Positions 21,589 through 46,780 of a stretch of 64,000 bases of DNA are shown here, in pieces. Both the position numbers and the translations under genes were made by a program. The stretch spans positions 186,001 to 250,000 of the forward strand of contig NZ_CP072867.1 in the NCBI RefSeq assembly GCF_017948245.1. Reading direction: 5' to 3'. The notes beneath the pieces are model-generated. The model saw nothing but the letters and a program-made list of their open reading frames with translations, ran no database searches and was not told where the DNA came from. The stretch is from Rhizobium sp. NLR16a. Lineage in GTDB: Bacteria > Pseudomonadota > Alphaproteobacteria > Rhizobiales > Rhizobiaceae. Each line of letters begins with the position of its first letter. Within the stretch, counting starts at the first letter, position 1.

Positions 21589-21592
21589 CTCC

Positions 21593-25205: not shown

Positions 25206-25242
25206 AAAAGGGATCGGCAAAGACCATCGTGCCACCAATCCC
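25206..25242 (-). terminator. Intrinsic terminator, expression platform of the guanidine riboswitch
   Basis: On the minus strand GGGATTGG and CCGATCCC form an 8-bp stem (one G-U pair) around a 17-base loop, followed directly by TTTT. It lies 5 bases after the aptamer 3' side and 26 bases before the first start codon. Ligand binding should prevent it from forming, giving an ON switch as is usual for this class. Confidence 0.75.
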
Positions 25243-28261: not shown

Positions 28262-28283
28262 CCGGTGATTTGGGGCGCCTGAC

Positions 28284-28955: not shown

Positions 28956-28966
28956 TTCAGACGCCC

Positions 28967-28999
28967 GTGCCGGGCGCAATGCTTGTTTGCGCCCGGCAC
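28967..28999. terminator. Bidirectional terminator hairpin
   Basis: A perfect 13-bp stem (GTGCCGGGCGCAA / TTGCGCCCGGCAC) with a 7-base loop. It sits exactly between the convergent genes ending at 28955 and 29024. No strong T tract follows on either strand. Confidence 0.7.
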
Positions 29000-29023
29000 G
29001 AAAACCGTGCCCTGATCCCAGTC

Positions 29024-30628
29024 TCAGCCATCCAGCCCCTTGAAGCGCACCGGCTGATAGCCGCGCAGCAGCAGGATTCCGAGTGAATAGGTGTTGCGGC
29101 AGACGCGGCCCTTGCAGGCATTGGGCGTTGCCTCCATCACCTCCACCTTGCGGTCGTCGGTGAAGCGCATGAACAGCATCACATGCGAACCCGGGCGGTT
29201 CAGCGCGTCGCCCGGCTGCAGCGACCAGGGGTCGGCAAGCCGTCTGGTAATGCTCGGGATCGCCCGGGTCGAGACATGCATCTTCAGCCCCCAGGCTTCG
29301 CTGACGAAGCCGGAGCAGTCGACGCCGAGAATATTGGTTTGCGGCGCGCTCTTGGTGCAGACATTGCCGGCCGTCTGGCCGTCGACGACACCCTCGGTGA
29401 AGTCCTCGAGCGGCGTCTTGCAGCCCCAGCAATAGGGCACGCCCTTCACCGTCTGGCCGCGTTTGCCGAACAGGTAGAACGGCCGGCGCAGCCGGTTCAT
29501 GTTGACACAAGCCGGCCCCGGATCCTTGCCGTAGGCCGCCGGCGTCACCAGCCAGTTCAGCGTCTCGAAGCCGATCGCCCGCTCGATGACGTCGCCGCGC
29601 GATTTCGGCAGGATGGCGACCTTCGGCCCCTTTCCGGGCTTGGTCGCCATCGATGGCTTTGCCGGCCTGGCGACGGCGAGCTTGCGGCCGGGTTCGCGCC
29701 CCTCGAGTCTCAGCACCTGCGCCCGGCTCTCCTGAGAGCGAAGAAAAAGCACGTCGCCGCGCGGACCGATCGCCACGAACCGCCTGGAGAAGACCGTGCC
29801 GGGTTCGATCGGCAGATCGTAGACGCGCTCCAGCACGCCGTTCGGCGTGAAGCGCACCACCAGCATGCCGGTCCGTTCCGGCCGCTCGGCGGGCACGAGT
29901 TCGACCAGCGCATAGGGCCTTCCCGTCGTGTCGATGTCGAGCAGTTCGACGGTGCCGATCCGGTTTTCCCCGGTGAGCTGAAGCGAGAGGAAATTCTCCT
30001 CCGAGCTCGCGCGCCGCAGCAGGATTTCCGCCTTGTCGTTTGCCGCCGAAACTTCTGCGACGATATCGCCGAGGCCGCGGCTCGGCACGTATTGAACAAC
30101 CGGCGGGCGGGCTTGCGGCCGGCTGGTGCTGCGGCCGATCTCGTCGATGATGCTGTTCAGCGGACCGGGCGGCACCGAGCCCATCGAGGCGAAGACCGAG
30201 CGGGTGTAGTCGTCGGCATCGCCGCCGTCGATGGCGCGCAGGGTCTGCGAGCGGCCATCGGCGCCGGGGGAGCGCTCGAGCGGCACGATGCCGTCAGACC
30301 AGAGGTAGAGTTCGTTATGAACGACGGCGAGATCCTCCGGCGCCGCATTTTCGGGCAGCGGCAGGATCTCCGGATCGGCCTGCGAGCGTTCGCCGTCGAC
30401 GGCGAGCACGCGGCCGTTATTCTGGTCGAGGATGTAGACGGTGCCGTCGTCGCCGACGGTGATCGCCGCCGGTCCGGATGCCTCGACCTCCTCATTGGCG
30501 GAGATGATGCCGACCGAACGGGCGCCGTCGCCGCTCGGAAGCTCGATCATCACCGTATCTTTTGCGAGCACAGGCCAGGCGATTGCGATCGCCGCGGCCA
30601 TCAGAATATGCGAGCTGAAACTGCGCAT
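29024..30628 (-). CDS. Exported beta-propeller-like protein with NlpC/P60-type C-terminal domain
   Basis: A 534-residue exported protein with a signal peptide MRSFSSHILMAAAIAIAW ending VLAK. The middle region has NHL/propeller-like strands (TVYILDQNNGRVLAVDG and NELYLWSDGIVP). The C-terminal 110 residues resemble an NlpC/P60 peptidase: Cys438 in GVDCSGFVSEAWG, His482 in RPGSHVMLFM, and a preceding LQPGDAL. Such domains usually cut peptide stems in the cell wall. Several extra Cys residues could form disulfides. The ATG at 30628 replaces the longer frame from 30754, which lacks a signal peptide. It is antisense to its neighbours in the exported cluster and may be functionally linked. Confidence 0.7.
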   Translation of the reverse strand: MRSFSSHILMAAAIAIAWPVLAKDTVMIELPSGDGARSVGIISANEEVEASGPAAITVGDDGTVYILDQNNGRVLAVDGERSQADPEILPLPENAAPEDLAVVHNELYLWSDGIVPLERSPGADGRSQTLRAIDGGDADDYTRSVFASMGSVPPGPLNSIIDEIGRSTSRPQARPPVVQYVPSRGLGDIVAEVSAANDKAEILLRRASSEENFLSLQLTGENRIGTVELLDIDTTGRPYALVELVPAERPERTGMLVVRFTPNGVLERVYDLPIEPGTVFSRRFVAIGPRGDVLFLRSQESRAQVLRLEGREPGRKLAVARPAKPSMATKPGKGPKVAILPKSRGDVIERAIGFETLNWLVTPAAYGKDPGPACVNMNRLRRPFYLFGKRGQTVKGVPYCWGCKTPLEDFTEGVVDGQTAGNVCTKSAPQTNILGVDCSGFVSEAWGLKMHVSTRAIPSITRRLADPWSLQPGDALNRPGSHVMLFMRFTDDRKVEVMEATPNACKGRVCRNTYSLGILLLRGYQPVRFKGLDG

Positions 30629-30876
30629 TGCCGTGAACCCCGGAACAGGATCATCTTGGCCCTGGGGGCCTCGGTCTGAAGCCTGTTCACAATTAAAGAG
30701 TGAGAGAATGATGTCGCCCGAAAACCGTTCACAACTTTCGGCATCATGCCCCAAGTCCTTAAAATGTTAGGATAGAAGCGGCTCGTCAGCAAGGCGTTGC
30801 TTTCCAAACGATTTGGAGATCGGCGTCGACAATAGTACAACTTCATCGTCTTGGAGTTTTACTGGCAGGGAAGCCG

Positions 30877-31467
30877 ATGCTGGACTGGAACGGTGACGAA
30901 GTGGCGCTCGACGTCAGCCTGCTGGAGCAGGTGCGCGCGGCAAGGATCGGCTTTTCCGATCGGGTCTGCGCCGCCTCGGCCAGCAAGGACGAAAAACATC
31001 TGGCGCAGTTGCGCTCCGAGCCGACCTATCTGATGGCCGAGTTTCTTTATTCGATGAAGGTGTTCGGCATCAACACGGCTGAAGATGTCGAGCGCTTCGC
31101 CGATCTGCACAATGATTACGTGGTGTCGCTCACCCGCGATCCGGCGAAGCTGCAACGCCTCGGGCTTTCGCAGGAGCGGGCGCTCGCTTCGATGTTCACC
31201 GCCGACACCAAGCCGCGGCTGATCCAGAACTGGGCTGAAAAATCAGGCGCCATCGATCAGTCCAATCTCGCCCGTTTCCTGGTCGCCGTCATGTCGAGCG
31301 AGACCTGCCGCAAGACGCTGATCGATTTCGAGACAGCCGGCTTCATGCAGCGCAGGCGCTCGCCCTATGGCACCATGGTCGTCTGGTCGACCGGCAGGAT
31401 CGAGGAAATCTTCGGCGAAATGCTGCGCAATCTCCGCCTCGCCCTGCAGCAGCTGAAGATCCTCTGA
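30877..31467 (+). CDS. Hypothetical protein, 196 residues, helical
   Basis: No family is recognised. The protein has no signal peptide or membrane segment and looks soluble and mainly helical. The part from about residue 120 (SGAIDQSNLARFLVAVMSSETCRKTLIDFETAGFM cut in pieces here as SNLARFLVAVMSSET and TLIDFETAGFM) ending RRRSPYGTMVVWSTGRIEEIF could be a winged-helix. That would make it a possible regulator, but this is a guess. The ATG at 30877 has GGGA 6 bases upstream. It is divergent from the NlpC/P60 gene and 150 bases upstream of the small exported protein. Confidence 0.6.
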   Translation: MLDWNGDEVALDVSLLEQVRAARIGFSDRVCAASASKDEKHLAQLRSEPTYLMAEFLYSMKVFGINTAEDVERFADLHNDYVVSLTRDPAKLQRLGLSQERALASMFTADTKPRLIQNWAEKSGAIDQSNLARFLVAVMSSETCRKTLIDFETAGFMQRRRSPYGTMVVWSTGRIEEIFGEMLRNLRLALQQLKIL

Positions 31468-31617
31468 CCTCTCTCCAGCCGATTTCACCCCTCCCAATCG
31501 ATTGGCGCCGAGCGCCGTTGCCTTCCATTCGGGCTCTCCCTATTGTCGTTCTGGAGCAATTCCAGCAAAAGTGTGCAGCGGTTGCGTTATGGCGCCCCTT
31601 GGACGGATGTGACGACG

Positions 31618-31995
31618 ATGAAGAAATCCCGGCTCATAAGCGTGTCGATCGGCCTGCTGCTTTCGCTTGGGATGGCCGGCATCGGCTATGCCGGATCGGT
31701 CGAGGATGCGCTGGCGGCGCGAAACCCCGCGCTTGCGGCGCTGCGCCGGCACGATGAAAAGGCTTTTGCCGCCGCCGTTGCTGTTATCGCCGACCATGAA
31801 CGCGCCGAGGGGCTGACGCCGGGCCAGGGCAAGCTGCCGGAGACGACCTCGCCCGGCCGCGACATGGGCTCGGGCTCCGGCAAGGAATTCACATCGGACA
31901 ATCCGGATATTCTCTGGCTCTACAATTCCTCGCCGGAGGGAATGAGCGACCTGATCTCGATTCTGAAATCCGCCGGCCAGAAGCCGAAGAACTAA
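31618..31995 (+). CDS. Small exported hypothetical protein
   Basis: A 125-residue protein with an N-terminal signal peptide (MKKSRLISVSIGLLLSLGM, cleavage near GYAGS). The mature part has a Glu-Arg-rich helix (ADHERAEGLTPGQGKLP) and ends NPDILWLYNSSPEGMSDLI. No family is recognised. The ATG at 31618 was chosen because it starts the signal peptide; the frame opens at 31543. It stands upstream of the DUF4384-OmpA gene with a 212-base gap. Confidence 0.65.
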   Translation: MKKSRLISVSIGLLLSLGMAGIGYAGSVEDALAARNPALAALRRHDEKAFAAAVAVIADHERAEGLTPGQGKLPETTSPGRDMGSGSGKEFTSDNPDILWLYNSSPEGMSDLISILKSAGQKPKN

Positions 31996-32207
31996 CCGTC
32001 TTTCTCCAATCCAGTCCGACTATAAACGGACGGCGGATATTGCCGGCCGTGGGTCTTGCCGCGCCTCTGCCTTCGCGCAATCTTTCCGGCTCCAAATAAT
32101 TTGTAACCCTCCCTCAAGCAAGACAGCCAAAGCCATCCCAATTTCACCGGTCGGTGCTATTCTCATCTTCAGCACAGTGTGAGATTGTTTCGAAGGGGGA
32201 GGTTCCG

Positions 32208-34157
32208 ATGCTCAGCCGCAAAGCCATCCTGGCCGCAGCCACATGTCTTTCGCTTTTGTCGCCGATCCCCGAGGTCGGGGCGCAGAACGAACGCACGCTG
32301 ACGGAAGCGCCGGCTCAGAGCGGGCCTGTCAGCATCACCTTCGATCGCGCCGAGGCGAGATATGCCGTCGGCGAAGTCGTCGGCCTCTTCATCCAGTCGA
32401 GCGAGAACGCCTATGTCACGGTGCTGAACGTTTCGCCGAACGGCTCCGTCACCAAGCTCTTCCCGAACAAGTACCAGACCGATGCCCTCGTTGCCGCCGG
32501 CAAGCGCGTGCAGGTGCCGGATCCGGCGAGCGGCGCCAGGCTGCAGGTTTCGGGCCCGGTCGGGCAGGAGCAGATCAAGGTCTTCTATTCCTCCAAGCCG
32601 CTGACCATCTTCGCCGATCTCGGCGGCAGCGGCAGCGGCATGTTCCGCTCCATCGACGGCGGCATGGAGGCCGTCTCCCGCAGCCTCGAAGAAGCCCGCA
32701 GCCTCGGCACCAAGATCAGCAGCAAGACGCTGACGCTGACCACTGTCGACAGCACGGCCGCCCTGCCGCCTTCCGTCGTTCCGCCCGTCGCCGCCGTTCC
32801 CGCCGCAAAACCCGCGCCGGTCGAGCAGGCGGCAAAGCCGCCGGTTGCGCCGAAACCGCCGGCCGCCCCGAAGCCGAAACCGGTCGTCAAACCTGAAGTC
32901 GCCAAGAAGCCCGAGGCGATCGAAAAGCCGAAGCCCGCGCCCAAACCGGTCGAACAGGCCGTGACGCAGCCGCCGAAGAAATACAAGATCGTCACCAACC
33001 TGGCGCCCGGCCAGCAGCTTGCCGCCGATGAGCTGCAGCTGATCGGCCCCGCCGACACCACCGCCTCCACCCGGCCCAGCCAATATAAACAACCGAGCCA
33101 ATATCAGCAGCCGTCCCAGTCTGCCCAGACCAAGATGCCGAAACTGCCGATGCCGCAGATCAAGATGCCGCAATTCAAGCTTCCCGGCGGTTTCAGCATC
33201 AAGATGCCGCCGATGAGCTTTGGCCGGTCGGCCGAACCCGGCCAGTCCGGCGAGGAGATCGAGGTCGCCAATGCCGATAGCCCGGCCTGCAACGCCCTGC
33301 TCGACAAGCTGAACACCGCCGTTGCCGCCAAGGATATCACGGCTGCCGCCTCCGAGGCTGATGCCATTGCCGTCAGCGCCGAATGCGGACAGTTCCAGAT
33401 CAACGCCCAACGTCGCGTCGCAGCCCTGAGGCTCGCCGCCGCCCAGGAAATGATGGCCGCCGACAAGCCGGTCGCCGAGTATGAACCGCTGCTCGTCGCC
33501 GCCGACAGCCCGCAGGTGCTCTGGCAGGCCTCCGCCACGCTCGGCGAGATCTATTTCTCCGCCCGCCGCTTCGCCGATGCCGCCGCCGATTACCAACAGG
33601 CGATCGAGATCATCAAGAACGAGACCCGCACGCCGAAGGCGCCGCCGGCCGAGACCATCTCCGATCTCATCCAGCGCGCCGCCCAGGCCCGCATTCTGGC
33701 CGCCAATCCCACCAGCGACAACCCGCAGGGCAGTTTCGTGCCGGCCGAGAAGGATCACCGCAGCGGCGTGCTCGGCGGCATCTATTCAGAAAATGTGCGC
33801 GGCATCGTGCCGGTCTCCATCCCGGTGCCGATCACCTTCGATTTCGACAAGTCGACCTTCACCTCGATTGGCACCGAGGCTGCCCAGGAATTGCTGCAAG
33901 CGCTGAAGGAGCAGAAGCCCGGCCGCGTCATCCTGATCGGCCATACCGATCGCAAAGGCGGCGACGATTACAATAAGAAGCTCTCCGAGCGCCGCGCCCA
34001 GGCCGTTGCCGATTTCCTGAAGAAAAACGGCATCGACGCCACGATCGACGCGGAAGGCCGCGGCGCCTCCGAACCGGTTGACGTGACCGCCACCGCCAAC
34101 CTCACCGAAGACGATATCGACGCGCTCAACCGCCGCGTCGAATGGCGCCGCGAATAG
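32208..34157 (+). CDS. DUF4384 and OmpA-like domain envelope protein
   Basis: A 649-residue exported protein. The signal peptide (MLSRKAILAAATCLSLLS, cleavage near VGAQ) is followed by a DUF4384 domain at about 30 to 150 (YAVGEVVGLFIQSSENAYV, LFPNKYQTDA). A long Pro/Ala/Lys-rich linker spans about 200 to 360, then a helical region with TPR-like character. The C-terminal OmpA-like domain (ITFDFDKSTF, LIGHTDRKGG, LSERRAQAV) keeps the Asp and Arg that bind peptidoglycan. It should tether its DUF4384 domain to the cell wall. It is the first gene of a tight run; the caspase gene follows after 21 bases. An AGGGGGAGG site precedes the ATG at 32208. Confidence 0.88.
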   Translation: MLSRKAILAAATCLSLLSPIPEVGAQNERTLTEAPAQSGPVSITFDRAEARYAVGEVVGLFIQSSENAYVTVLNVSPNGSVTKLFPNKYQTDALVAAGKRVQVPDPASGARLQVSGPVGQEQIKVFYSSKPLTIFADLGGSGSGMFRSIDGGMEAVSRSLEEARSLGTKISSKTLTLTTVDSTAALPPSVVPPVAAVPAAKPAPVEQAAKPPVAPKPPAAPKPKPVVKPEVAKKPEAIEKPKPAPKPVEQAVTQPPKKYKIVTNLAPGQQLAADELQLIGPADTTASTRPSQYKQPSQYQQPSQSAQTKMPKLPMPQIKMPQFKLPGGFSIKMPPMSFGRSAEPGQSGEEIEVANADSPACNALLDKLNTAVAAKDITAAASEADAIAVSAECGQFQINAQRRVAALRLAAAQEMMAADKPVAEYEPLLVAADSPQVLWQASATLGEIYFSARRFADAAADYQQAIEIIKNETRTPKAPPAETISDLIQRAAQARILAANPTSDNPQGSFVPAEKDHRSGVLGGIYSENVRGIVPVSIPVPITFDFDKSTFTSIGTEAAQELLQALKEQKPGRVILIGHTDRKGGDDYNKKLSERRAQAVADFLKKNGIDATIDAEGRGASEPVDVTATANLTEDDIDALNRRVEWRRE

Positions 34158-34178
34158 AGGGGCGAGGGGGAACCGGCC

Positions 34179-35795
34179 ATGTCCACATTCGCTCCCATGG
34201 CCGCCGCACTCGCCCTTCTTGTTCTGGCGGGCACGAACAGTCTCGCCAGGACGATCGAAGCTCCCGAGCGCGGCACGGTCAGAGCCGTTCTGATCGGCAT
34301 CGATCTCTATCGCAATGTCCCGCCGCTGCACGGCGCCGTCGCCGATGCCGAGGATCTTTCCCTGTCGCTGCGCTCGCTCGGGGTCGAGGACATGACGCTC
34401 TTGAAGAACGGCGCGGCCGACCGCCAGGGCATCTTCGATGCGATCGGCGCCGTCACGCAAAGGGCAGGCGAGGGCGATCTCGTCGTGCTCGGCATCGCCG
34501 GCCACGGATCGAGCGAGCCGGAGCGCGTCAAGGGCTCGAAACCCAGCGGCCGCGACGAGGTCTATGTGCTGGCCGGCTTCGATACGAGGCTGCCGGGATC
34601 GCGCGAGCGCATCTTCGGCGACGAATTCAAGGTGCTGATCCACAAGCTGGAGGAAAAAGGCGCCGAGGTGCTGTTTATCGCCGACACCTGCCATGCCGGC
34701 GGCCTCACTCGCGATGTCGACCCGCGCGGCGCCGAGATCACCTGGCGCCAGGCGCCGTCCTATACGATCGAGGAGGATGACCTGGCGCCGATTTCGACCA
34801 CGGCCGATGCCCTCTCCACCGGCTTCGATTACAAGCGGTTGACCTTTCTTGCCGCCGTCGACGACCATACCAAATCGCCGGAAATATCGATTCCCGGCAT
34901 AGCTCAGAAGCGCGGGGCGCTGAGTTATGCCACCGCCCGCGCCTTCGAAGGGGCGGCCGACCGCAACGGCGACGGCACTGTGACCCGCCGCGAGCTGTTC
35001 GAATATGTGCGCCAGTCGGTCTATCAGTTCACCGACCAGCGGCAGAACATCTTCACGCAAAGCCCGCCCGGGGCGGATCTCGACCGCGCCGTCGTCTATG
35101 CCTATGACAAAGCCGGCCCGGCGGAAGGGCAGAAATCGAATGTGCCGCCCCCGCCGCCCGAACCCGCCCCGATCACCCTTGCCGCCCTCGGTTCGGAGCC
35201 GGTGCTGGAGGCTGTCGCTCCCGCCGTCACGCCGTTCAAGCTGACGGACGATGCCAATGCCGAACTCGTCTTCGATCCGCAAAAGCGCGAGGCGATCGCC
35301 GGCGGCGATGTCGTCGCCTCCGAAGTCGGCGCCGGCGACATGCCCTTCGTCGTCGACCGGATGGCCGCGCTCGACACGCTGAAGCGGCTGTCGGAGATCA
35401 ACCCGCAAACCGTGCGGGTGACACCATCCGACAAGGTTCATCGCGACGGCGAGCGCGTCGGCGTCACGGTGTCCGAGCTTGCCGGGCGCAAGCTCGTGCT
35501 GTTCGACGTCACCGGCGATGGCACGGTGCAGTTTCTCTATCCCGGCGACAGGGAAGCCGATGCCGAGATGTCTGCGACCTTCGATCTCGATCTTTCCGTC
35601 GTCGCTCCCTTCGGCACGGACCTGCTCGTCGCGGTCACCTCCGATCAGGCGATGCCTGGTCTGGTAGAATTCCTGAAACAGAACGACCGGCGCCGCACCG
35701 CCGGCAACATCGCCAGACAGCTCGGCGAGCTTCTGCCCGAGGGCGCGCGCGTCGGATTTACGGTCCTCTATACCTCCGCCGGAGCCAGGCTATGA
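34179..35795 (+). CDS. Exported caspase-family protein with DUF4384-like C terminus
   Basis: A 538-residue protein with a signal peptide (APMAAALALLVLAGTNSLA). The caspase-like domain (RAVLIGIDLYRNVPPL from residue 35) has the dyad His109 (GIAGHGSSE) and Cys171 (FIADTCHAGG), so it should be active. After about residue 340 a Pro-rich linker leads to a DUF4384-like domain (RDGERVGVTVSEL, GTVQFLYPGD). Its last four bases overlap the start of the trypsin-caspase gene. As part of the five-gene run it is the apparently intact caspase next to one that has lost its His. The targets are unknown. Confidence 0.88.
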   Translation: MSTFAPMAAALALLVLAGTNSLARTIEAPERGTVRAVLIGIDLYRNVPPLHGAVADAEDLSLSLRSLGVEDMTLLKNGAADRQGIFDAIGAVTQRAGEGDLVVLGIAGHGSSEPERVKGSKPSGRDEVYVLAGFDTRLPGSRERIFGDEFKVLIHKLEEKGAEVLFIADTCHAGGLTRDVDPRGAEITWRQAPSYTIEEDDLAPISTTADALSTGFDYKRLTFLAAVDDHTKSPEISIPGIAQKRGALSYATARAFEGAADRNGDGTVTRRELFEYVRQSVYQFTDQRQNIFTQSPPGADLDRAVVYAYDKAGPAEGQKSNVPPPPPEPAPITLAALGSEPVLEAVAPAVTPFKLTDDANAELVFDPQKREAIAGGDVVASEVGAGDMPFVVDRMAALDTLKRLSEINPQTVRVTPSDKVHRDGERVGVTVSELAGRKLVLFDVTGDGTVQFLYPGDREADAEMSATFDLDLSVVAPFGTDLLVAVTSDQAMPGLVEFLKQNDRRRTAGNIARQLGELLPEGARVGFTVLYTSAGARL

Positions 35796-38338
35796 GCACG
35801 TCGATCAGCAAGGTCTTCAACATTGCGGCCGTCCTTCTGCTGCTGGCCGCGCCGACGTTTGCGCAGCAGGATACCGATTTTGCCGGTGAGGATGGCGGGC
35901 GGGTGATCGGCGGCCAGGCGGCGAAGAAGGGCGAATGGCCCTGGCAGGTGAAGATCCTGGCGCCCGATCCCGAGCAGCGCGGCCGCTTCGGCGGCCATTG
36001 CGGCGGCTCGCTGATTTCGCCGCGCTGGATCCTGACCGCCGCCCATTGCGTCACCAGCGGCCGTTCCGGCAAGCAGGATCTCTTCGCCCGCGACCTCCTG
36101 ATCGTCGAGGGAAAGCAGAAGATCGACAAGGTGATCTCGGTTGACGGCCCTGATAAGCCGGGGCTGTCCGTCGAGGACGTGATCATTCACGAGGATTTCG
36201 ACCGCAAGGTCTTCGCCAACGACATTGCCCTCATCAAGCTTGCCGAACCTGCCGTCTCGAAGCCGGCAATCCTCGCCTCCGCCGCCGACGAGGCCGTGGA
36301 AAGCCCCGGCCACACCGCCGTCGTCACCGGCTGGGGTTACACCAAGGCCGATCACGGCTGGGATGACAAATACCTGCCGACCGAACTGCAGGAGGTCGAG
36401 CTGCCGCTCGTCTCGCGCGAGGATTGCCGCGCCGCCTATCGCGAGAGCTCGATGCGCATGAACCCGATCGACGAGCGCAATGTCTGCGCCGGTTACGCCG
36501 AGGGCGGCAAGGATGCCTGCCAGGGCGACAGCGGCGGGCCGCTGGTCGCGCAGCGCCCCGACAAGCGCTGGATCCAGCTCGGCATCGTCAGCTGGGGCGC
36601 CGGCTGCGCCGAGGCCGAACATTACGGGGTCTATACCCGCGTCGCCGCCTTCCGCGACTGGATCGCCGCCAGGACGGACGGTGACGTGCCGAACGCGCCC
36701 GACACTTCGGCTGCTGCCGCCGAGGATCAGGTGGCGGCAATCGACACCAAGCGCCGGCCTGCTGCAAGCGAGACGACGGCCGGCACCAAGCAGAAGCAGA
36801 CGCCGGCTGCACAGCTCGAGGCCAACCTTGCAATTACGACGCCGCCCGGCAGCACGACCGCGCCTGCGGAAACGACGGAGACTCCAGCATCGCCTTCGCC
36901 CGAAGGCAGCCAGCCCGAGGTTCAGGCGCCGGCCGCCGAGCTGCCCATGGCAGTGCGTTCTCCCGGCGACCGCGCGCTTCTGATCGGCATCGACGATTAT
37001 GAGATGCGCGAGGCGAAGCTGACCGGCTCGGTCGACGATGTGAAGGCGATGCAGCTCTTCCTCGTCAAGACGGTCGGCTACCGTCCGGAACAGATCCACA
37101 CGCTCACCAATCGCAAGGCCACCCGCGCGGCGATCCTTGCCGAGATCGACGACTGGCTGGTGCGCCAGTCTCAAGCCGGCAGCCGCGTCTTCCTCTATTT
37201 CAGCGGCCAGGGCTCCGAGGAAATGGGCGCCGAGGCGACGACGAGCCCGACACTGGTTGCCGCCGATGCCAAGCTGGTGCGCGAGGGGGCCAAGGTGACC
37301 GTCACCAACCAGATCCGCGAGACCGAAATCGCCGCACGGCTGAACAGCCTCAGGGACCGCCGCGTCACGCTGCTGATCGATGCCTGCCATGTCGGCCCCG
37401 GCAGCCGCAGCGCGGTGGCCGCGCCCGCCGGCGGCACGGTGCGCTGCCTCGGCCCGGCTCTGGCGTCGCTGCAGCCGCCGAACCGCTCTGGCAAGGAAGC
37501 GAAATTCTCCTTCGGCGGCGAAACGGCGATGGTCTGGTCGGCGGTCAATGCCGGGCAATGGGCGCTGGTCGATACCGGGGCCAAACCGCCGCTCGGCGTC
37601 TTCACCCGCCGCTTCATCGAAGGCGTGCAGGAAGGGGTGGCGCGCGCTTCCGACAAGCCTGACGTCAGCAACGCCGCCCTGCTTGATTATGTCAGGCGCA
37701 AATCGGACGAATATTGCCGGGCCCATTCCGAGGACTGCCGCTTCACGCCGGTGCCGCAATTCTACGGCCTCCCGGATGCGCTTGGCCGCGACGTCGTCAC
37801 CGGAGAGGAGGCGAAGACCCCGGTCGCCGCCGTCGAAAACACGCTGAAGACCGACAATGAGGCGGGCGTGGCCGTCGACGTGCTGCCCGGCACCTCGGTC
37901 AGCATCGGCGACAAGGTGGCGATGCGCGTCTCCACCAAGAAATCAGGCTACCTGATCCTCGTCGATATCGACGCCGCCGGCAAGCTGACGCAGCTCTATC
38001 CCAACAAGCGCTCGATGGGCCTGAAGCCGACGGCGAAGGGCGGCGACAACCGGCTCGATCCGGCCCGGCCGGTGGTCGTGCCGGATGCCCGCAATCCCTA
38101 TATCGGTTTCGAATATGTGGTGGAGGGGCCGGCCGGCGTCGGCATGGTCGTCGCCATTCTCAGCGACAAGCCGATCGAAGTGCTCGACCTGCCTGACGTG
38201 CCGACACCGCTCGTCGGCCAGCGCGCCGCCTTCAACTATGTCTACGACCTCGCCCGCAGCCTCAGGATCGTCGGCGACGACGAGACCGGCGTCCAGGGCA
38301 AATGGTCGTTCGATTCCAAATTCTATCGCATCCGCTGA
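35792..38338 (+). CDS. Trypsin-like zymogen fused to caspase-like and DUF4384 domains
   Basis: An 848-residue exported fusion. The signal peptide (residues 1 to 24) and a short propeptide end at Arg37, followed by VIGG, the classic activation cleavage. The S1 trypsin domain (38 to about 295) has His85 (LTAAHC), Asp144 (NDIAL) and Ser247 (GDSGGP). Asp241 sits at the position that selects Arg/Lys (chymotrypsin 189), and paired cysteines are present. A Thr/Pro/Ala linker leads to a caspase-like domain from about 393 (DRALLIGIDDYEM). There Cys532 (IDACH) is kept, but the His is Gln473 (YFSGQGSEE, codon CAG), so this half is probably inactive. A DUF4384 domain begins near 695. The serpin gene follows 11 bases later. 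Confidence 0.9.
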   Translation: MSTSISKVFNIAAVLLLLAAPTFAQQDTDFAGEDGGRVIGGQAAKKGEWPWQVKILAPDPEQRGRFGGHCGGSLISPRWILTAAHCVTSGRSGKQDLFARDLLIVEGKQKIDKVISVDGPDKPGLSVEDVIIHEDFDRKVFANDIALIKLAEPAVSKPAILASAADEAVESPGHTAVVTGWGYTKADHGWDDKYLPTELQEVELPLVSREDCRAAYRESSMRMNPIDERNVCAGYAEGGKDACQGDSGGPLVAQRPDKRWIQLGIVSWGAGCAEAEHYGVYTRVAAFRDWIAARTDGDVPNAPDTSAAAAEDQVAAIDTKRRPAASETTAGTKQKQTPAAQLEANLAITTPPGSTTAPAETTETPASPSPEGSQPEVQAPAAELPMAVRSPGDRALLIGIDDYEMREAKLTGSVDDVKAMQLFLVKTVGYRPEQIHTLTNRKATRAAILAEIDDWLVRQSQAGSRVFLYFSGQGSEEMGAEATTSPTLVAADAKLVREGAKVTVTNQIRETEIAARLNSLRDRRVTLLIDACHVGPGSRSAVAAPAGGTVRCLGPALASLQPPNRSGKEAKFSFGGETAMVWSAVNAGQWALVDTGAKPPLGVFTRRFIEGVQEGVARASDKPDVSNAALLDYVRRKSDEYCRAHSEDCRFTPVPQFYGLPDALGRDVVTGEEAKTPVAAVENTLKTDNEAGVAVDVLPGTSVSIGDKVAMRVSTKKSGYLILVDIDAAGKLTQLYPNKRSMGLKPTAKGGDNRLDPARPVVVPDARNPYIGFEYVVEGPAGVGMVVAILSDKPIEVLDLPDVPTPLVGQRAAFNYVYDLARSLRIVGDDETGVQGKWSFDSKFYRIR

Positions 38339-38349
38339 AAGGGAGGCGA

Positions 38350-39534
38350 ATGATGTCGAGATCCATTCTGCTGGCGGGCCTTTCCGCTTCCCTGATGGCG
38401 CTGGCGCCCGCCCATGCGGGCGATGCCACCGACACCAGGGCGGTCCTTGCCGCCCAGGCCGGGCTTGCCGTCGACCTGATCGACCGCACGCTGGCGAAAG
38501 AGGGGGCGGCCAACATCATGGTGTCGCCGGCAAGCCTTGCCGCCGCGCTGGGTCTCGCGAGCCTCGGCGCCTCGGATGCGGGCAAGGCGGCCATCGCACG
38601 GGGGCTGGGTTTCGGCGATGCGGTCAAGGGGCCGGAGAAGGTGCTCGACGAGATGAACCCGAAGACGCCGCCGGCGGCGGATGCGCCGCTGGCCTCAGGT
38701 GTTGCGATCGTCTTCGACGACAAGCTGGCGCTCCTCCCCGATGCCCTCCCCATGCTGGCCGGTCACCGTATCAAGCCGTCGATCGAGGATCTCGATCAGC
38801 CCCAATCCGTCGAGCACATCAACGGCTGGGTCAGGCAGGCGACGCGCGACGCCATTCCGGCGATCCTGGAAACGCCGCCCGGCGGCGGCTTCATCAGCCT
38901 CGGCGCGCTCTCCTTCAAGGCGCGCTGGAAAACCGCCTTCGAGGCTCAGAGCCCGGCCGCCCCGTTTCGGCGGCCGGACGGCTCGACGGTCTCGGTGCCG
39001 ATGATGCATCTTGCCGGCGACGGCCAGAAATTCCGCGTCGACGATCGTTTCGCAGCCGTCGACCTCGCCTATTCTGGTGAAACCTACCGCATGGTGGTGA
39101 TCGCGGCGCGCTCGGAAAAGGGTGTCGGCGGTTCCGATCTCAAAACCCTTGCCTCCTGGCTCCAGGGCGAGAAATTCGAAGCCGCCAAGGGGGAAATCTT
39201 CCTGCCCCGCTTTTCCCTCAATGACGGGCGTGATTTGATGCCGACACTCCATGCCATGGGCCTTTCGCCTGATAAGGCGAGCGATGCGGCTTTTCCCAGG
39301 TTCACCACGGAAAACATCAGCTTGTCGCGCGTTCTGCAGAAGACGATGATCAAGGTCGATGAGAATGGCACGGAAGCGGCGGCGGCAACGGCCGTGGTCA
39401 CCGAGCGCAGCATCGATCCGAAACTGGTGCGCGTGAGCGCCGACGCCCGTTTCGCCTTCGCGCTTCGCGATACGAAGACCGGCCTGTTTCTCGCCGCCGG
39501 CCTGATCGGCGATCCGCTTCTGGCGGGTGAATGA
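38350..39534 (+). CDS. Serpin-family protease inhibitor (exported)
   Basis: A 394-residue serpin with a signal peptide (residues 1 to about 23, APAHA). Family motifs run throughout: ANIMVSPASLAAALGLASLGA at 54 to 74 (shown shortened as NIMVSPASLAAAL), INGWVRQATRDAIP, LGALSFKARWKTAF, VPMMH and EIFLPRFSL. The reactive loop hinge ENGTEAAAATAVV (338 to 350) is the small-residue type of inhibitory serpins. It is followed by TERSIDP, with Arg353-Ser354 the likely scissile bond, close to the antithrombin pattern. It would trap Arg-specific trypsin-like enzymes, and such an enzyme is encoded 11 bases upstream. GGGAGG precedes the ATG. Confidence 0.92.
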   Translation: MMSRSILLAGLSASLMALAPAHAGDATDTRAVLAAQAGLAVDLIDRTLAKEGAANIMVSPASLAAALGLASLGASDAGKAAIARGLGFGDAVKGPEKVLDEMNPKTPPAADAPLASGVAIVFDDKLALLPDALPMLAGHRIKPSIEDLDQPQSVEHINGWVRQATRDAIPAILETPPGGGFISLGALSFKARWKTAFEAQSPAAPFRRPDGSTVSVPMMHLAGDGQKFRVDDRFAAVDLAYSGETYRMVVIAARSEKGVGGSDLKTLASWLQGEKFEAAKGEIFLPRFSLNDGRDLMPTLHAMGLSPDKASDAAFPRFTTENISLSRVLQKTMIKVDENGTEAAAATAVVTERSIDPKLVRVSADARFAFALRDTKTGLFLAAGLIGDPLLAGE

Positions 39535-39575
39535 CATGCGCTTTGATGAAGACAAAATGGCAGGGGGACACGTGC

Positions 39576-41981
39576 ATGAGAAGTGATCTGATCGCCCGCT
39601 ACACGATCGGCGAGCCGGTCTATGAAAACGAGTTCATCGTCTATCCGGCTCAGGACAAGCGGATGGATCGTTCGGTCTTCATCGTCGCGCCCGATGTGGC
39701 GCTGAAACTGGACAAGGCCCGCTTCGAGCGGGTCTGGACCTCGGTCAACGAGGCCAAATCGCTGACGGCGCGGCGCTTCGTCGAGATCGAGGATCTGATC
39801 CCGCCATCGCCGGAAGACGACAACTTTTATATCGTCGAGAAGCGGCCGTCGAAGACGCTGCACCAGTATCTCGAGGAAACCGAGATGGTCGCCTATGACC
39901 GCGCCATCGAGATCGGCCGCCATATCCTCGAAGGGCTGGCGACGCTGCACGGGGCCGGTTACGCCCACAATGCCCTGACCGACCAGTGCATCTACGTGTC
40001 GGAGGATTATTCCGGCCTCTCGGTCCGGATCGGCAACCTGCACCTGATCTCCAAGATCGGCGAGCACATCATCCCGCCCTATGCGCCGGAATTCGGCGCG
40101 CCGGAGATCTATGCCAGCGGCACATTCTCGGCCTCCGCCGCACTCGACATCTATGCGATGGGCATGATCGCCTACAAGCTCTTCCTGCCGCGGCAGACCT
40201 ATGCCAGCGTCTTCGACAGCGTCATGGTCTGGGAGGACGAGCACCAGCGCGAGCAGAGCTGGAAGAACATCCATCTCGACCCCTCCAACATCTTCCCGCG
40301 CCTCGACGTGCTGATCCCCGGATTTCCCGAGGGCCTGGCCAGCCTGATCGAGAGAATGCTGAGCCGCGATCCGGCCCAGCGACCGCGCATGGGCGCCGAT
40401 GCGCTCGGCGAATTCAGCCGCGTCACCACGGGCATCCAGCCGATGGCCTGGGACCCGCGCGGCGGCATGCCGCAACAGCCGGAAGCGCCGAAGCGGAAGA
40501 AATGGACGCTGGCGCATTTCTCGATGATCGGTGCGCTGCTCCTGATCTGCATCGGTGTCGGCGTCGTCACGATCCCGAAGCTGCTGCGCCCCGATCCCAA
40601 GCTCGTCGCCGATGTCGGCACCTGGAAGAAGGAGGCCGAAAGCCGCAGGGACAAAGCCGTCGCCGCCAAGGCGCCGGAACGCCCCTCCGGCGACGAGGCG
40701 AAGCTCTCCTATGATGCCGGCGCCGCCGCACTGACCGAGGCTAATGCCGCCCTCAAGGATGAGGACTACAAGAAGGCGCTTCCGGGCTATCAGAAGGCCG
40801 CCATCAGCCTTGGCAAATCGCTGATCTCAATCTCGAAAGAAAACGCTGAAAAGGCCAAATCGGCCGCTGCCGCCGCCGGCGGCGACAAGGCCCCGAGTTT
40901 TGCCGAGGCCGACAGCAAGATGAAGGCCGCCGCCGACAGCGCCGCCGCCCAGCAGATGCATGGCGCGGTCGACAACTATGAAGCAGCGAAAACGGCTTAC
41001 GACGATCTCGCCAAGGGGCTGACCGCGCTGTCGGCAGCCGAAAAGGACGCCACGGCAAAACGCGAAACCGTCACCCGCATCGGCGCCGGCGACAGCCCCG
41101 ACGTCGCCAAGGCGAGCGGCCTGATGACCGAGGCCAAGGCCAAGGCCGAGCAATGGCAGCTGCCGGCCGCGACCTCCGGCTACGGCGACGCCGCCAAGCT
41201 CTTCGCCGCACTGATATCGGATGTGATGGCGGCCAAGGACGAGGCGACGGCGCTGAGGCAGAAAGTCACCGATCTCCACGCCTCGCTGACGACGCGCGCC
41301 GGCCCCACTGATCCGACACTTGCCGCGCTGGCGCCGAAGCTCACCGAGGCCGATGGCCGCTACACCGCCGAGGCCTACAAGCTCGCCATCGCAGCCTATC
41401 AGCCGATCCTGACCGATCTCCAAGCGCTCTCGGCGCGCGGCTTCTGCCCGGTTGCACCCAATGTCGCCTTCGAGACCATCCCTGCCGGCAGCTATCCGCT
41501 CGACAACGTCCGGCTGATGACCTCGTCGCTGAAGGAGCTCGGCGGCATGCTCGGCGTCGCCAATGGCGCCGTGAAGGTCGAAAAATCCTTCTGCATGCAG
41601 GCCAAGGCGGTCACCCGCGCCGAGATGGCCGAGTATTACACCGCCAACTCAGACCCGGCCTCCGCCCAGGCCTATGCCGGCAATCCCGAGCAGCCGGCCG
41701 ACGACGTGCCGCTCGCCGAGGCGCAGAACTATACCGCCTGGCTGTCGAAACAGCTGAACGCCCCCGTCCACCTGCCGTCGGCGACCGAATGGATGGCCAG
41801 CGCCGTCAAGCTGACGACGGAAAAACTGCCCGACAACGGCGACATCATCCTGCAATGGAGCGCCACCCCCTGCGAAGCCGGCGGCAACGTCGCCTTCATG
41901 GCCCAGGAGGGCTCCACTTTCGTCGTCTGCTCGGATGCTTCGGCCGGCGGGATTTTTCGGGTGAGCGCCGAATTGAAGTGA
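39576..41981 (+). CDS. Membrane pseudokinase with SUMF1/formylglycine-enzyme-like C-terminal domain
   Basis: An 801-residue membrane protein. Residues 1 to about 290 have a protein-kinase fold: the APE-like GAPEIYA at 174 to 180, DIYAMGMIAYKLF at 191 to 203 and RMLSRDPAQRPRM. The catalytic HRD is HNA (131 to 133), and DFG is replaced by GNL (153 to 155), so phosphotransfer is unlikely. One membrane segment lies at about 312 to 336. A long Ala/Lys/Glu helical region follows, then a C-terminal SUMF1-like domain (KSFCMQAKAVTRAEMAEYY, VHLPSATEWMA). The ATG at 39576 has GGGGGA upstream. It closes the run of five genes and could sense or scaffold the envelope proteases. Confidence 0.85.
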   Translation: MRSDLIARYTIGEPVYENEFIVYPAQDKRMDRSVFIVAPDVALKLDKARFERVWTSVNEAKSLTARRFVEIEDLIPPSPEDDNFYIVEKRPSKTLHQYLEETEMVAYDRAIEIGRHILEGLATLHGAGYAHNALTDQCIYVSEDYSGLSVRIGNLHLISKIGEHIIPPYAPEFGAPEIYASGTFSASAALDIYAMGMIAYKLFLPRQTYASVFDSVMVWEDEHQREQSWKNIHLDPSNIFPRLDVLIPGFPEGLASLIERMLSRDPAQRPRMGADALGEFSRVTTGIQPMAWDPRGGMPQQPEAPKRKKWTLAHFSMIGALLLICIGVGVVTIPKLLRPDPKLVADVGTWKKEAESRRDKAVAAKAPERPSGDEAKLSYDAGAAALTEANAALKDEDYKKALPGYQKAAISLGKSLISISKENAEKAKSAAAAAGGDKAPSFAEADSKMKAAADSAAAQQMHGAVDNYEAAKTAYDDLAKGLTALSAAEKDATAKRETVTRIGAGDSPDVAKASGLMTEAKAKAEQWQLPAATSGYGDAAKLFAALISDVMAAKDEATALRQKVTDLHASLTTRAGPTDPTLAALAPKLTEADGRYTAEAYKLAIAAYQPILTDLQALSARGFCPVAPNVAFETIPAGSYPLDNVRLMTSSLKELGGMLGVANGAVKVEKSFCMQAKAVTRAEMAEYYTANSDPASAQAYAGNPEQPADDVPLAEAQNYTAWLSKQLNAPVHLPSATEWMASAVKLTTEKLPDNGDIILQWSATPCEAGGNVAFMAQEGSTFVVCSDASAGGIFRVSAELK

Positions 41982-41984
41982 GCA

Positions 41985-42200
41985 GGCAGAAGGGTGGGAC
42001 TGAGCGGGTGAGCTGTGTGCCCCATCTTCTCCCCACTCGGGAATTCTATGGAGGGAAAGGCTCGTTCGTTTTGACAGTATCGGCGCCCCTCGCTCCCTCT
42101 TCTCCCCTCGGGGGTCCGAAGGACGGGTTGAGACCCGTGGCTCAACCCCGGTCGGTGGCCCTAGGGCGGATGAGGGGGCCACACGGCACGCCATTCATAG
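41985..42200. repeat. Rhizobial-type intergenic repeat remnants
   Basis: The 335-base gap before the NYN gene contains CCCCATCTTCTCCCC, CTCTTCTCCCCTCGGGG and GGATGAGGGGGCC. These are pieces of the CTCATCC / TTCTCCCC elements scattered between rhizobial genes. No gene was seen. Confidence 0.45.
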
Positions 42201-42316
42201 TCCCTTTAGCTGCTCTCATTCGCGATAGGCGAAACGTGATGCAACCGCATGGTTGAAGGAACTACAGAGTTAGCCAGCTTGAATTTGGGGCCTATCAATC
42301 ACCACGGAGCTTTGAC

Positions 42317-43069
42317 ATGCCTGAACCACGCTCGCCACGTCTTGCTGTTCTAATCGACGCTGACAACGCCTCCGCAAAGATCGTTGACGGTCTATTCGAG
42401 GAAATAGCCAAGATCGGCGAAGCGAGCGTGCGGCGCATCTATGGCGACTTCGCCAATGCTCGCTCCAAGGCATGGATCGACGTCCTCGCAAGACACGCGA
42501 TCATCCCTCAACAACAGTTTGCCTACACCACGGGCAAGAACGCATCAGACATCACGCTGGTCATCGATGCGATGGACTTGCTGCATAGTGGCCGCTTCGA
42601 CGGTTTCTGCCTGGTGTCATCAGATAGCGATTTCACGCGTCTCGCCTCACGCATTCGGGAACAAGGGATCGATGTCTTCGGCTTCGGGGAGCAGAAGACG
42701 CCGGAGAGCTTCCGCCAGGCATGCCGGCGGTTCATCTACACGGAAAATCTGACGCCTTCGGTCGTGTCGAACGGAACGGACGCCGCACAGGTTGCGTCTT
42801 CCCTACGGCCGCCGAGCGCCGCAACACCGATCATCAAAAGAGTAATCGCGCAGATGGAAACCGAGGATGGATGGATCCCGCTCGGCGCGGTCGGAACCCA
42901 ACTTGCCAATCTCGCATCCGACTTCGACCCACGGACGTTCGGATTCAAGAAGTTGAGCGATCTGATTAAGAAGACGAACTCCTTCGAGGTCGATCATGCC
43001 GAAGGCGGGCAATTTCGTATCCGCCTGAAACCTGCGCCAACAAAAAGCAGGGTGAAGCCGGCAACCTAA
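42317..43069 (+). CDS. NYN/LabA-type ribonuclease-like protein with OST-HTH (LOTUS) domain
   Basis: A 250-residue protein. Residues 9 to about 155 form a NYN (PIN-like) domain with acidic metal sites: AVLIDADNAS, YGDF, the helix GKNASDITLVIDAMDLLHSG and LVSSDSDFTRLA. The C-terminal part from about 175 (IKRVIAQMETEDGWIPLG, LSDLIKKTN, FRIRLKP) is an OST-HTH/LOTUS RNA-binding domain. Together these suggest RNA cleavage or RNA surveillance. An appropriate GGAG site precedes the ATG at 42317. It stands alone at the edge of the defence island. Confidence 0.9.
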   Translation: MPEPRSPRLAVLIDADNASAKIVDGLFEEIAKIGEASVRRIYGDFANARSKAWIDVLARHAIIPQQQFAYTTGKNASDITLVIDAMDLLHSGRFDGFCLVSSDSDFTRLASRIREQGIDVFGFGEQKTPESFRQACRRFIYTENLTPSVVSNGTDAAQVASSLRPPSAATPIIKRVIAQMETEDGWIPLGAVGTQLANLASDFDPRTFGFKKLSDLIKKTNSFEVDHAEGGQFRIRLKPAPTKSRVKPAT

Positions 43070-43317
43070 CGCATCGGCAGATAACGCTGATTGGATCTCA
43101 GATCCCGCGAGGGTTTGCGTTTCGATATGATTTGGATTGTCGCTCCCTCTGCTTCGGCGGCGGCCTCGTCAGCGTAAGCGCCGAATTACGGCGAACTTTC
43201 ATTCACAAATTCGCGTTCAAGCCGTGTCTAACGACAAATTTCAATTCCAAATTTTTAAATACGCGCGTACATTGAACATGGGGACTGTAGTATCCGTGCG
43301 TTGAGGGGTCGGGGAAA

Positions 43318-43629
43318 ATGTGCTGGAATACATCAACAGCATTCACGCCTGTCGGTTTTGCTTTGCGGGGTCCGAAATCTCGCAAAATCGTGTGGACATT
43401 GGGCGACGCGGCGCGTCTCCTGATGAACGACTGGCCTTGCGATGACGGCGAGGAATATATGGCTGCCGTCAAAGCCTGCGTCGACGCCATCACCGGCAAA
43501 ATTGCCCCGGAACAATTCCGCGAAGTGCTTTTGCGTGCGGCCGACGAGGCGGGTATCCGTACGCTATCGCTGGTTCCGCTGGGAATGGGAGGGCCGCGGC
43601 CGGGCCTGCCGCCGATGATGCGATCGTAG
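43318..43629 (+). CDS. DUF982 family protein
   Basis: A 103-residue protein with the DUF982 pattern common in rhizobia: a strand start, AARLLMNDWPCDDGEEYMAA (shortened here), a central VKACVDAITGKIAPEQFREV and a final AADEAGIRTL. The function of the family is unknown. The ATG follows a GGGG-rich site. A 248-base gap separates it from the NYN gene. Confidence 0.75.
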   Translation: MCWNTSTAFTPVGFALRGPKSRKIVWTLGDAARLLMNDWPCDDGEEYMAAVKACVDAITGKIAPEQFREVLLRAADEAGIRTLSLVPLGMGGPRPGLPPMMRS

Positions 43630-44003
43630 GCCGTACATCGAGCGCCCAACCTTTTAGACGTCACCGCTGAGCCTACAGAGCGCTCACTGGGCTCGGCGTG
43701 AGGAACGGCAGATTCGGGGCCGGGAGAGGCCTGTCCGCTGTTGGGGTGCCGTAAGGCGAAAGCCGACAGTCGGTCTACTGGTACTGCTGTCCGAGTTCGG
43801 GCCGTTGCGGACATAATAGTATGAACACTAAAGCCAGCTTTGCGTCCGCGTTCCGGTCGTTCACATAGGCCGCAGGGATTTCCCCGAAGCAGCCGCTCGA
43901 CATGTTTGGGCTTGAATATCCAGCTAGGCGGATGCCAGCACGTGGACAGTCCGATCGCTCGGTGCAGGGCATTGCCAAATCGGCGGTGGCGCACCGCCTC
44001 GCA
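43630..44003. other. Intergenic region on the left of the defence island
   Basis: There is no supported gene in these 374 bases. Around 43730-43772 a degenerate GTCCGCTGTTGGGG...AAAGCCGACA segment resembles a decayed repeat, and a similar piece occurs near 51180. Confidence 0.35.
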
Positions 44004-46523: not shown

Positions 46524-46666
46524 GTGCAATCACCGAAAAAGAGAGCGGACAATCAATATTCTTATTGGGATTACACGCGGCACTCACGGTCGTAAACAGC
46601 TTATCCGGGTGTTGCAGCTAGAATAGTTTCCGTGCTCTCTGGTAGCCTTGTCGCCCCGCCCTTCAG

Positions 46667-46717
46667 TAGCGGACGGTCCCCCCAAGTCACGCTCTCGGTT
46701 CTGTGACGGGGCCGCTA
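46667..46717 (-). other. Structured hairpin between UvrD-like and helicase genes
   Basis: An imperfect long stem pairs TAGCGG with CCGCTA, CCCC with GGGG, and GTCAC with GTGAC around a small loop. It lies 64 bases after the UvrD-like stop. It may be a terminator or a small RNA fold. Confidence 0.35.
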
Positions 46718-46780
46718 GAGGAAGTCGGCTCATCAGCTTACAGGTGGCAAAGCCGACGTTCTTAAAGCTAGTCGTCGCTC

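Follow-up and report, generated by a model that had tools for sequence, protein, structure and literature searches.

We report here that five consecutive plus-strand genes of Rhizobium sp. NLR16a, encoding a DUF4384 protein with a peptidoglycan-binding domain, an orthocaspase, a trypsin fused to a predicted pseudo-caspase, a serpin and a predicted membrane-spanning pseudokinase, form one unit. They occupy positions 32208-41981 of a 64,000-nucleotide stretch (contig NZ_CP072867.1, positions 186,001 to 250,000), hereafter the window. We draw this conclusion because the genes were present all together or not at all among 100 genomes, the same 30 carrying every one of them, and because they were contiguous in 30 of 30 carriers. 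Our preferred reading, offered tentatively as a real possibility, is that the conserved block around them encodes a periplasmic relay built on a zymogen protease, with a serpin as its brake, and is coupled to a Tad-type pilus machine.

Five genes, one unit

Gene 1 (32208-34157, plus strand) encodes a DUF4384 domain (Pfam, 4.7e-22; 78.3 bits against a cut-off of 27), a linker, a TPR-like stretch below cut-off and an OmpA peptidoglycan-binding domain (1.2e-16). Gene 2 (34179-35795, plus) is an orthocaspase (Peptidase_C14, 7.5e-13) with the dyad H109/C171, an EF-hand-like loop below cut-off and a degenerate DUF4384-like C-terminus at about 35394-35669. Gene 3 (35792-38338, plus) joins a trypsin domain (2.6e-55; H85, D144 and S247, with D241 as the S1 Asp) to a predicted pseudo-caspase (Peptidase_C14, 5e-15; Q473/C532) and a DUF4384 domain (1.7e-16; 60.5 bits against a cut-off of 27). 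Gene 4 (38350-39534, plus) encodes a serpin (2.7e-53) with an apparent signal peptide, and gene 5 (39576-41981, plus) a predicted cytoplasmic pseudokinase (Pkinase, 3.7e-12), one membrane span, a periplasmic helical region and an FGE-sulfatase-like C-terminus; the FGE-sulfatase match lies under its cut-off in gene 5 and the FGE domain is above cut-off in the homologue P0028. The closest named relatives of gene 5 belong to R. etli-type Rhizobium (97-98%).

These places, and the gaps of 21, -4, 11 and 41 bases, agree with a first-pass annotation made from the sequence alone, which had also described four signal-peptide proteins and one membrane protein in the envelope. Our by-eye reading found apparent signal peptides on genes 1-4 and a single membrane span in gene 5 (approximately residues 312-337), and the sequences fit that location. 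The same annotation had placed DUF4384 in three of the proteins. This held by Pfam for genes 1 and 3; for gene 2, DUF4384 (PF14326) gave no Pfam match even at an expectation value (E) of 10, and the likeness was seen by profile-profile comparison only (hhalign probabilities of 84.3% with gene 1 and 68.3% with gene 3, and of 0.1, 0.1 and 10.2% with three other domains). Promoter-like sites (2 found, 1.5 expected) and terminator-like sites (8 found, 9.2 expected) occurred at chance level, and no RNA family reached its gathering score within 28000-43000.

To follow the genes across the genus, each of the five proteins was searched separately in 100 genomes drawn from a larger group, with the E limit set at 1e-3 (serpin), 1e-30 (genes 1 and 2) or 1e-50 (genes 3 and 5); where a search was larger, only the best first-look candidates were scored. 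Genes 1-5 were each found in the same 30 genomes, our own included, and the other 70 gave no match. All 30 carriers hold them on one contig, on one strand and in one order, so that the genes are not scattered, an outcome that the first-pass annotation had named as one that would refute it. In three carriers (G005, G061 and G007) the 196-residue gene to the left of the unit lies 2.5 to 6 kb from gene 1, compared with 0.7-0.9 kb in the other 27, and the core is contiguous there as well.

Stronger evidence for the unit comes from its depth. Among 28 named loci recovered by a gene 5 profile search, genes 1, 2, 3 and 5 were present in all 28 and the serpin in 27. Identities across the five genes were 60-73% in R. 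lusitanum and 47-65% in two Chthonobacter species, and in C. rhizosphaerae genes 1-5 and the three genes preceding them are kept in order at 47-67% (P0154, one of the three, as a partial match only). Large plasmids or chromids carry the block, among them p42e of R. etli CFN 42 and pRL11 of R. johnstonii 3841, and gene 5 was found in 88 plasmid records, 87 from Rhizobium and one from Neorhizobium. Such a distribution might also be produced by a functionally mixed neighbourhood that rides a conserved replicon of the p42e/pRL11 type and whose genes share no job. In its favour, the 30 carriers are apparently mostly one clade and their count has no same-replicon control gene beside it. We nevertheless regard this explanation as very unlikely: another genus retains the order at 47-67% identity, matches to the left-hand neighbours of the block are limited to a generic ATP-binding cassette (ABC)-ATPase, and the core recurs in other alphaproteobacterial lineages.

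The last point was seen when 385 genomes of the class were searched for serpins: six had a match, five besides our own. In three of these five the serpin adjoins a trypsin-caspase-DUF4384 gene, and two of the three are from one genus. The latter two loci (L056 and L057, from another family) carry OmpA, caspase, trypsin-caspase-DUF4384 and serpin genes at approximately 23-34% identity, and the third (L053) has the order DUF4384, OmpA, trypsin-caspase-DUF4384, serpin. Beside the L053 cassette, divergent genes at L053:1-3829 encode a CHAT-domain protein and, at the stretch edge, a second caspase with 42% identity to gene 2 across 315 residues. No trypsin-caspase-DUF4384 genes were found within 19 kb around the serpins of the remaining two genomes (L054 and L055). 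A search of 247 genomes of the family yielded two serpins of another genus; no such genes were found near one of them (L059), and the other lies on a 3.9 kb contig.

Proteases, inhibitor and pseudokinase

Gene 3 has the hallmarks of an S1A zymogen protease, namely a His-Asp-Ser triad, an S1 Asp and an Arg before V-[IV]-G-G, with its predicted activation site at Arg37/Val38 (GGR/VIGG; 35900-35905, plus). The triad, the S1 Asp and R-V-[IV]-G-G are present in 30 of 30 aligned gene 3 sequences. Among the best 120 of 499 matches to the window's gene 3, of which those with names are Rhizobium, triad, S1 Asp and Arg were all found in 120 of 120. For gene 3 of L053 we obtained 254 relatives at 1e-60 among 7,993 scored candidates, and the best 120 of the 254 retained the triad His in 113 (7 gaps), Asp in 114 (6 gaps) and Ser in 119 (1 gap), the S1 Asp in 114 (4 Ser, 1 Ala, 1 gap) and the activation Arg in 111 (7 gaps, 1 Lys, 1 Ser). 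Over both best-120 sets the activation Arg is thus found in 231 of 240, the remainder being 7 gaps, 1 Lys and 1 Ser. The best matches of the trypsin domain among solved structures (PDB) are plasma kallikrein and factor XI, which are zymogen proteases under serpin control.

The caspase domains of genes 2 and 3 behave differently from one another. In gene 2 the p20 His-Cys dyad is present in 30 of 30 sequences, as in orthocaspases. Its structure model is of moderate quality (predicted local distance difference test score, pLDDT, 68.0) and matched Geobacter GSU0716, metacaspases and the paracaspase MALT1 in Foldseek, with E down to 9.6e-08; these matches confirm the caspase core alone, the DUF4384-like part not being identified by fold. 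In gene 3 the catalytic His is replaced by Gln in 29 of 30 sequences, which breaks the dyad, and the His is kept in C. rhizosphaerae only (L051), the sole member of this 30-sequence set with both dyads intact. The same position holds Gln in 119 of the best 120 of 499 matches to the window's gene 3 and His in 119 of the best 120 of 254 matches to that of L053. In L056 and L057 the roles are reversed: gene 2 lacks both dyad residues and the gene 3 dyad is intact. As judged from these residues, every locus at which both genes were read has at least one apparently intact caspase, and the predicted dead partner differs between lineages. The pseudo-caspase is under purifying selection, with a ratio of non-synonymous to synonymous substitution rates (dN/dS) of 0.09-0.13, and only linkers are looser (up to 0.70); dN/dS values are from comparisons of the window with its relatives, of which 5-7 of 29 were used. 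The first-pass annotation had named a single caspase, as effector. Instead, there are two caspase-like domains within the five genes and a further caspase gene upstream of them, and the gene 3 domain is without its catalytic His.

The hinge and reactive loop of the serpin (VDENGTEAAAATAVVTERSIDPK; 39355-39423, plus) contain a putative bait Arg before Ser, and Glu-Arg-Ser is found in the loop of 29 of 29 aligned sequences. Assignment of this Arg as P1 is a prediction based on the numbering of alpha-1-antitrypsin. The hinge reads ExGTEAAAA or close variants in 29 of 29 and thus matches, or comes near to, the small-residue P17-P9 consensus of inhibitory serpins, which was taken from PMC8233489. 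The closest solved structures include conserpin and miropin entries. No acceleration is seen in the reactive loop, whose dN/dS was 0.03-0.10 across five comparisons, versus 0.10-0.27 for the whole serpin gene in seven.

These observations bear on the possibility that the serpin faces outward and blocks plant or competitor proteases, the linked trypsin being an independent nutrient or processing protease. Several characterised bacterial serpins do act on host proteases, as set out in PMC8233489. In addition, the bait Arg is shared by serpins that we take as unlinked, and C. albigriseus has the trypsin and no detected serpin. Against these points, the serpin adjoins trypsin and caspase genes in divergent lineages, including three of the five other serpin-bearing genomes of the class, and the loop lacks the acceleration just noted. 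We consider an outward-facing role improbable.

The kinase-like domain of gene 5 departs from active Ser/Thr kinases: in all 14 aligned homologues, placed in register by a kinase alignment, Ala replaces the HRD Asp and Cys the catalytic-loop Asn, and at the DFG Asp position 11 have Asn and three Asp, Lys44 being invariant. By these residues gene 5 is classed as a pseudokinase, as the first-pass annotation had it. Its dN/dS of 0.05-0.09 indicates purifying selection.

The wider block and the Tad-type pilus locus

The conserved block exceeds the five genes to which the first-pass annotation had confined it. Four further members had escaped that annotation: a third caspase, a candidate of NlpC/P60 type and two small proteins, one secreted and one with no signal peptide. 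It also lacked the FHA-Tad pilus locus that directly follows the block in three relatives. In the window, an FHA-domain gene (61110-61988, minus; Pfam), the first of the Tad-type locus, is accompanied by a T2SSF inner-membrane platform gene (61991-63673, minus; Pfam). In R. lusitanum and both Chthonobacter species (L048, L049 and L051) the next matches after gene 5 are the FHA and T2SSF homologues of 61110-63673. T2SSE ATPase and TadE genes come next in Chthonobacter by Pfam and are annotated on pRL11 and p42e, so that the components of a Tad-type pilus locus (T2SSE, T2SSF and TadE) are found by Pfam in Chthonobacter, for T2SSF in the window, and by annotation on the two plasmids. The FHA gene occurs in the same 30 of 100 genomes as genes 1-5. 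It lies only 150 bp from gene 5 in G004, whereas 1.2 to 26.7 kb separate the two in the other 26 genomes that have both on one contig, and in three the two genes lie on separate contigs; in the window 19 kb of cargo separates them. We infer that the FHA gene is the ancestral right-hand neighbour of gene 5.

This adjacency also invites a different explanation, namely a contact-dependent weapon in which the Tad-type machine, the FHA protein and the kinase-like partner deliver or trigger proteases against neighbouring cells and the serpin shields the producer. Besides the co-occurrence and the FHA-Tad adjacency in three relatives, the serpin, trypsin and caspases appear exported, and the Tad-like Kil apparatus of Myxococcus is rich in FHA proteins, and its authors suggest a contact-related signalling cascade (PMC8460266). 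However, we saw no toxin, nor any export signal besides the apparent signal peptides. Furthermore, the peptidoglycan-binding domain of gene 1 would anchor the complex in the wall of the producing cell itself, the reactive loop is without acceleration, and no Tad match was seen in the stretches compared around the distant relatives. On balance a weapon seems unlikely.

The gene 5-FHA interval appears to be an insertion hotspot in Rhizobium genomes, and on pRL11 it contains IS91, IS5 and integrase genes. In the window, the cargo at 42317-51072 includes an NYN/OST-HTH gene, a PDC-S28 helicase and what looks like a complete Gabija pair (GajB 46781-48688, GajA 48685-51072). The 61991-63673 frame is a single open frame of 560 residues, at a place where pRL11 and p42e annotate two T2SSF genes. 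Partial second FHA copies with internal stop codons were seen at G026:C3:532743-532946 and G089:C5:433021-433494.

To the left, sequence comparison places the edge of the block at a third caspase-like gene (25535-28261, plus; Peptidase_C14 and Sel1 repeats by Pfam), which has a dyad at H159/C210 in open-reading-frame numbering and probably starts at an internal ATG. Its order and orientation are kept in C. albigriseus (52%) and R. lusitanum (63%). P0154 (29024-30628, minus) is a divergent secreted protein with a weak NHL beta-propeller signal and a weak NlpC/P60-like C-terminus (NLPC_P60, PF00877: E=0.15, 12.5 bits, cut-off 23). Profile comparison matched it to solved propellers, its Cys (VDCS) and His (PGSHV) are kept in 15 of 15 aligned sequences, and its structure model is poor (pLDDT 44.8). 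P0154 is found in the same 30 of 100 genomes as genes 1-5. So is the next gene (30877-31467, plus), which encodes a 196-residue protein of no recognised family in which no signal peptide was seen, with homologues at 61-78% in Chthonobacter and R. lusitanum and at 41% in L053; it is possibly a regulator. Between it and gene 1, a small protein with an apparent signal peptide and no Pfam match (31618-31995, plus) belongs to no recognised family and has a homologue at 28 of 28 loci.

Beyond the 25535 gene, only the ABC-ATPase gives matches, which are generic (43% in C. albigriseus, 28-30% in R. lusitanum), and its urea carboxylase and transporter partners have no match in the C. albigriseus and R. 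lusitanum stretches. The cluster concerned (15575-25207; urea carboxylase/allophanate hydrolase, DUF1989 proteins and an ABC transporter) is shared with p42e but was not matched in the stretches compared from pRL11, R. lusitanum and C. albigriseus, the generic ABC-ATPase in the latter two excepted. Beside the caspase-Sel1 gene, a lipoprotein-like gene (28284-28955) with a sub-threshold match to Peptidase_S74 (endosialidase chaperone) is present on p42e and partly so on pRL11 and in R. lusitanum; the stretch compared from C. albigriseus gave no match to it.

The candidate wall hydrolase and the cargo together raise the possibility of programmed death or anti-phage defence, in which envelope damage would fire the proteases, lysis would proceed through the NlpC/P60-like neighbour and the serpin would set the threshold. 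The caspases and the divergent hydrolase candidate are in keeping with it, as are the Gabija pair and the PDC-S28 helicase in the adjoining cargo, and in PADLOC a caspase model matched gene 3 (5.7e-24) and gene 2 (8.5e-12) and several defence kinases matched gene 5 (best 8.1e-18). But the PADLOC matches are to single-protein, domain-type models, the defence genes lie in variable cargo outside the conserved block, and the NlpC/P60 assignment is under its cut-off. We therefore judge this explanation to be quite unlikely.

A possible protease relay

Under the relay that we favour, gene 3 would be exported as a trypsin zymogen and activated by a cut after Arg37, made either by gene 3 itself or by gene 2 acting as an Arg/Lys-type caspase. 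The gene 2 caspase would be paired with the dead one in gene 3 as active and pseudo partner, and the serpin would be a one-shot trap for mistimed trypsin (or caspase) activity. The DUF4384 domains of genes 1, 2 and 3 are likely docking modules that would gather the proteases on gene 1, which may grip peptidoglycan through its OmpA domain as a wall-bound scaffold. Gene 5, predicted to cross the inner membrane, would connect this complex in the periplasm with the cytoplasm and, together with the FHA protein, with the Tad-type machine. The likely output would be a controlled cleavage of envelope or pilus components while the cell is in contact with a surface or root.

Several observations weigh against this reading or narrow it. 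The 30 of 100 count lacks a same-replicon control gene for comparison, and, since we take the named carriers to be mostly of one clade, the 30 are not independent events. L053 is without gene 2 between its OmpA and trypsin genes. No Tad match was found within 12.7-19 kb around L053, L056 and L057 (39 window proteins compared; open reading frames domain-scanned in part), so that coupling to the Tad machine may be a local feature. Residual nucleotide binding by gene 5 is possible, because Lys44 is invariant and a DFG-type Asp is present in 3 of 14 homologues.

The serpin supplies further points of this kind. Exceptional conservation of its loop was rejected, as 128 of 361 ten-residue windows of the protein equal or exceed the loop. 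We also rejected the argument that the loop Arg proves a pairing of serpin and linked trypsin: it is shared by all four serpins that we take as unlinked (L016, L017, L019 and L020), and the bait Arg is thus not special to the cassette. For three of these (L017, L019 and L020) the flanks (L059, L054 and L055, respectively) contained no trypsin-caspase match, and L016 lies on a contig of 3.9 kb (L058) outside that flank comparison. Finally, no serpin was detected in the C. albigriseus assembly, whose completeness is not stated and in which the trypsin is intact; therefore the serpin is not obligatory, and its standing as an obligatory brake is weakened.

Taken together, these results lend partial support to the first-pass annotation, which had proposed a regulated periplasmic proteolytic machine: its zymogen, caspases, inhibitor and membrane protein can all be recognised, and it is the serpin as brake that is called into question by C. 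albigriseus. We also considered a broader and more doubtful reading, in which the genes represent a clotting- or complement-like periplasmic cascade of Alphaproteobacteria that, in Rhizobium and Chthonobacter, would be wired through the pseudokinase and the FHA protein to the Tad machine and fired by contact. Its parts would be an Arg-activated trypsin zymogen, a role-swapping active/dead caspase pair, a dedicated serpin brake and a wall-anchored scaffold.

A published screen may already connect gene 1 to the plant. In R. johnstonii 3841, pRL110598 is an L-fuconate dehydratase (PMC7105596). On pRL11 the L-fuconate dehydratase is WP_011655321 and gene 1 is WP_011655314; if old tags and accessions run parallel, this offset makes gene 1 pRL110591. 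The outer membrane protein pRL110591 is reported as specifically required for lentil root colonization in PMC11103875, whose authors state that samples were pooled and that there were no independent replicates. If the mapping holds, root colonization is thus already tied to gene 1. Because the block occurs in tractable laboratory rhizobia, namely R. etli CFN 42 (on p42e) and R. johnstonii 3841 (on pRL11), the native target of a bacterial serpin becomes directly testable. In addition, the swapping of the dead partner between lineages offers a natural experiment on caspase/pseudo-caspase pairs.

Comparison with known systems

Each recognisable part of the unit is a known family. We found no paper on the assembled unit among those listed in the literature searched, most subscription papers lying outside that search, and none there that joins serpin, Rhizobium, caspase and DUF4384; the portions consulted of PMC5118466, PMC4149787, PMC2275737, PMC5758756 and PMC2853523 do not mention the five genes. 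According to a 2021 paper on serpins (PMC8233489), complex pathways of proteolytic signalling are absent from prokaryotes. Because no account of the assembled unit was found and such prokaryotic networks are denied there, we call the system as assembled, not its parts, new within the literature searched. With its own zymogen, caspases and serpin, the unit is a strong candidate exception to that stated absence.

The nearest description of a single part dates from 2019, when 'QC' pseudo-orthocaspases with an N-terminal trypsin and a C-terminal DUF4384 were described from Alphaproteobacteria (PMC6426788). Gene 3 shares their architecture and Gln-Cys dyad, and their trypsin triad was noted as intact. 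That paper treats single proteins; in the sections consulted, operon partners and a Tad link go unmentioned, and the word 'serpin' occurs 0 times in its main text. Cyanobacterial orthocaspases with DUF4384 are described without a trypsin or serpin in the part consulted of PMC7475262. Among defence-type models, that for EACC1-associated caspases (NCBIfam) matched only the upstream caspase-Sel1 protein, with 46 bits against a cut-off of 140, and the PADLOC caspase model has caspase domains in common with the unit as single-protein matches.

The type VI secretion system (T6SS) has a PpkA-Fha phosphorylation switch. The present block resembles it in having a kinase-like membrane protein and an FHA protein as neighbours. 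It differs in that gene 5 has no HRD Asp, and a T6SS-associated kinase module was rejected as no T6SS family (Tss core) was found among the 30 window proteins scanned. The Myxococcus Kil apparatus is a Tad-type machine with FHA proteins, as here, whereas 'protease', 'kinase' and 'OmpA' each occur 0 times in the main text of the Kil paper (PMC8460266), for which the literature search also listed 'caspase' 0 times. Miropin, the siropins and the bifidobacterial serpin have the serpin fold and inhibitory hinge in common with gene 4, but according to PMC8233489 they target host proteases, whereas gene 4 sits beside a bacterial zymogen and caspases.

By analogy, the unit resembles the serpin-controlled cascades of metazoans to which plasma kallikrein and factor XI belong, since gene 3 appears to be an Arg-activated zymogen of chymotrypsin fold with an S1 Asp and has a serpin in the same unit. 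Unlike in those cascades, the protease is bacterial, apparently periplasmic and fused to a caspase domain and DUF4384, and its inhibition by the serpin is predicted.

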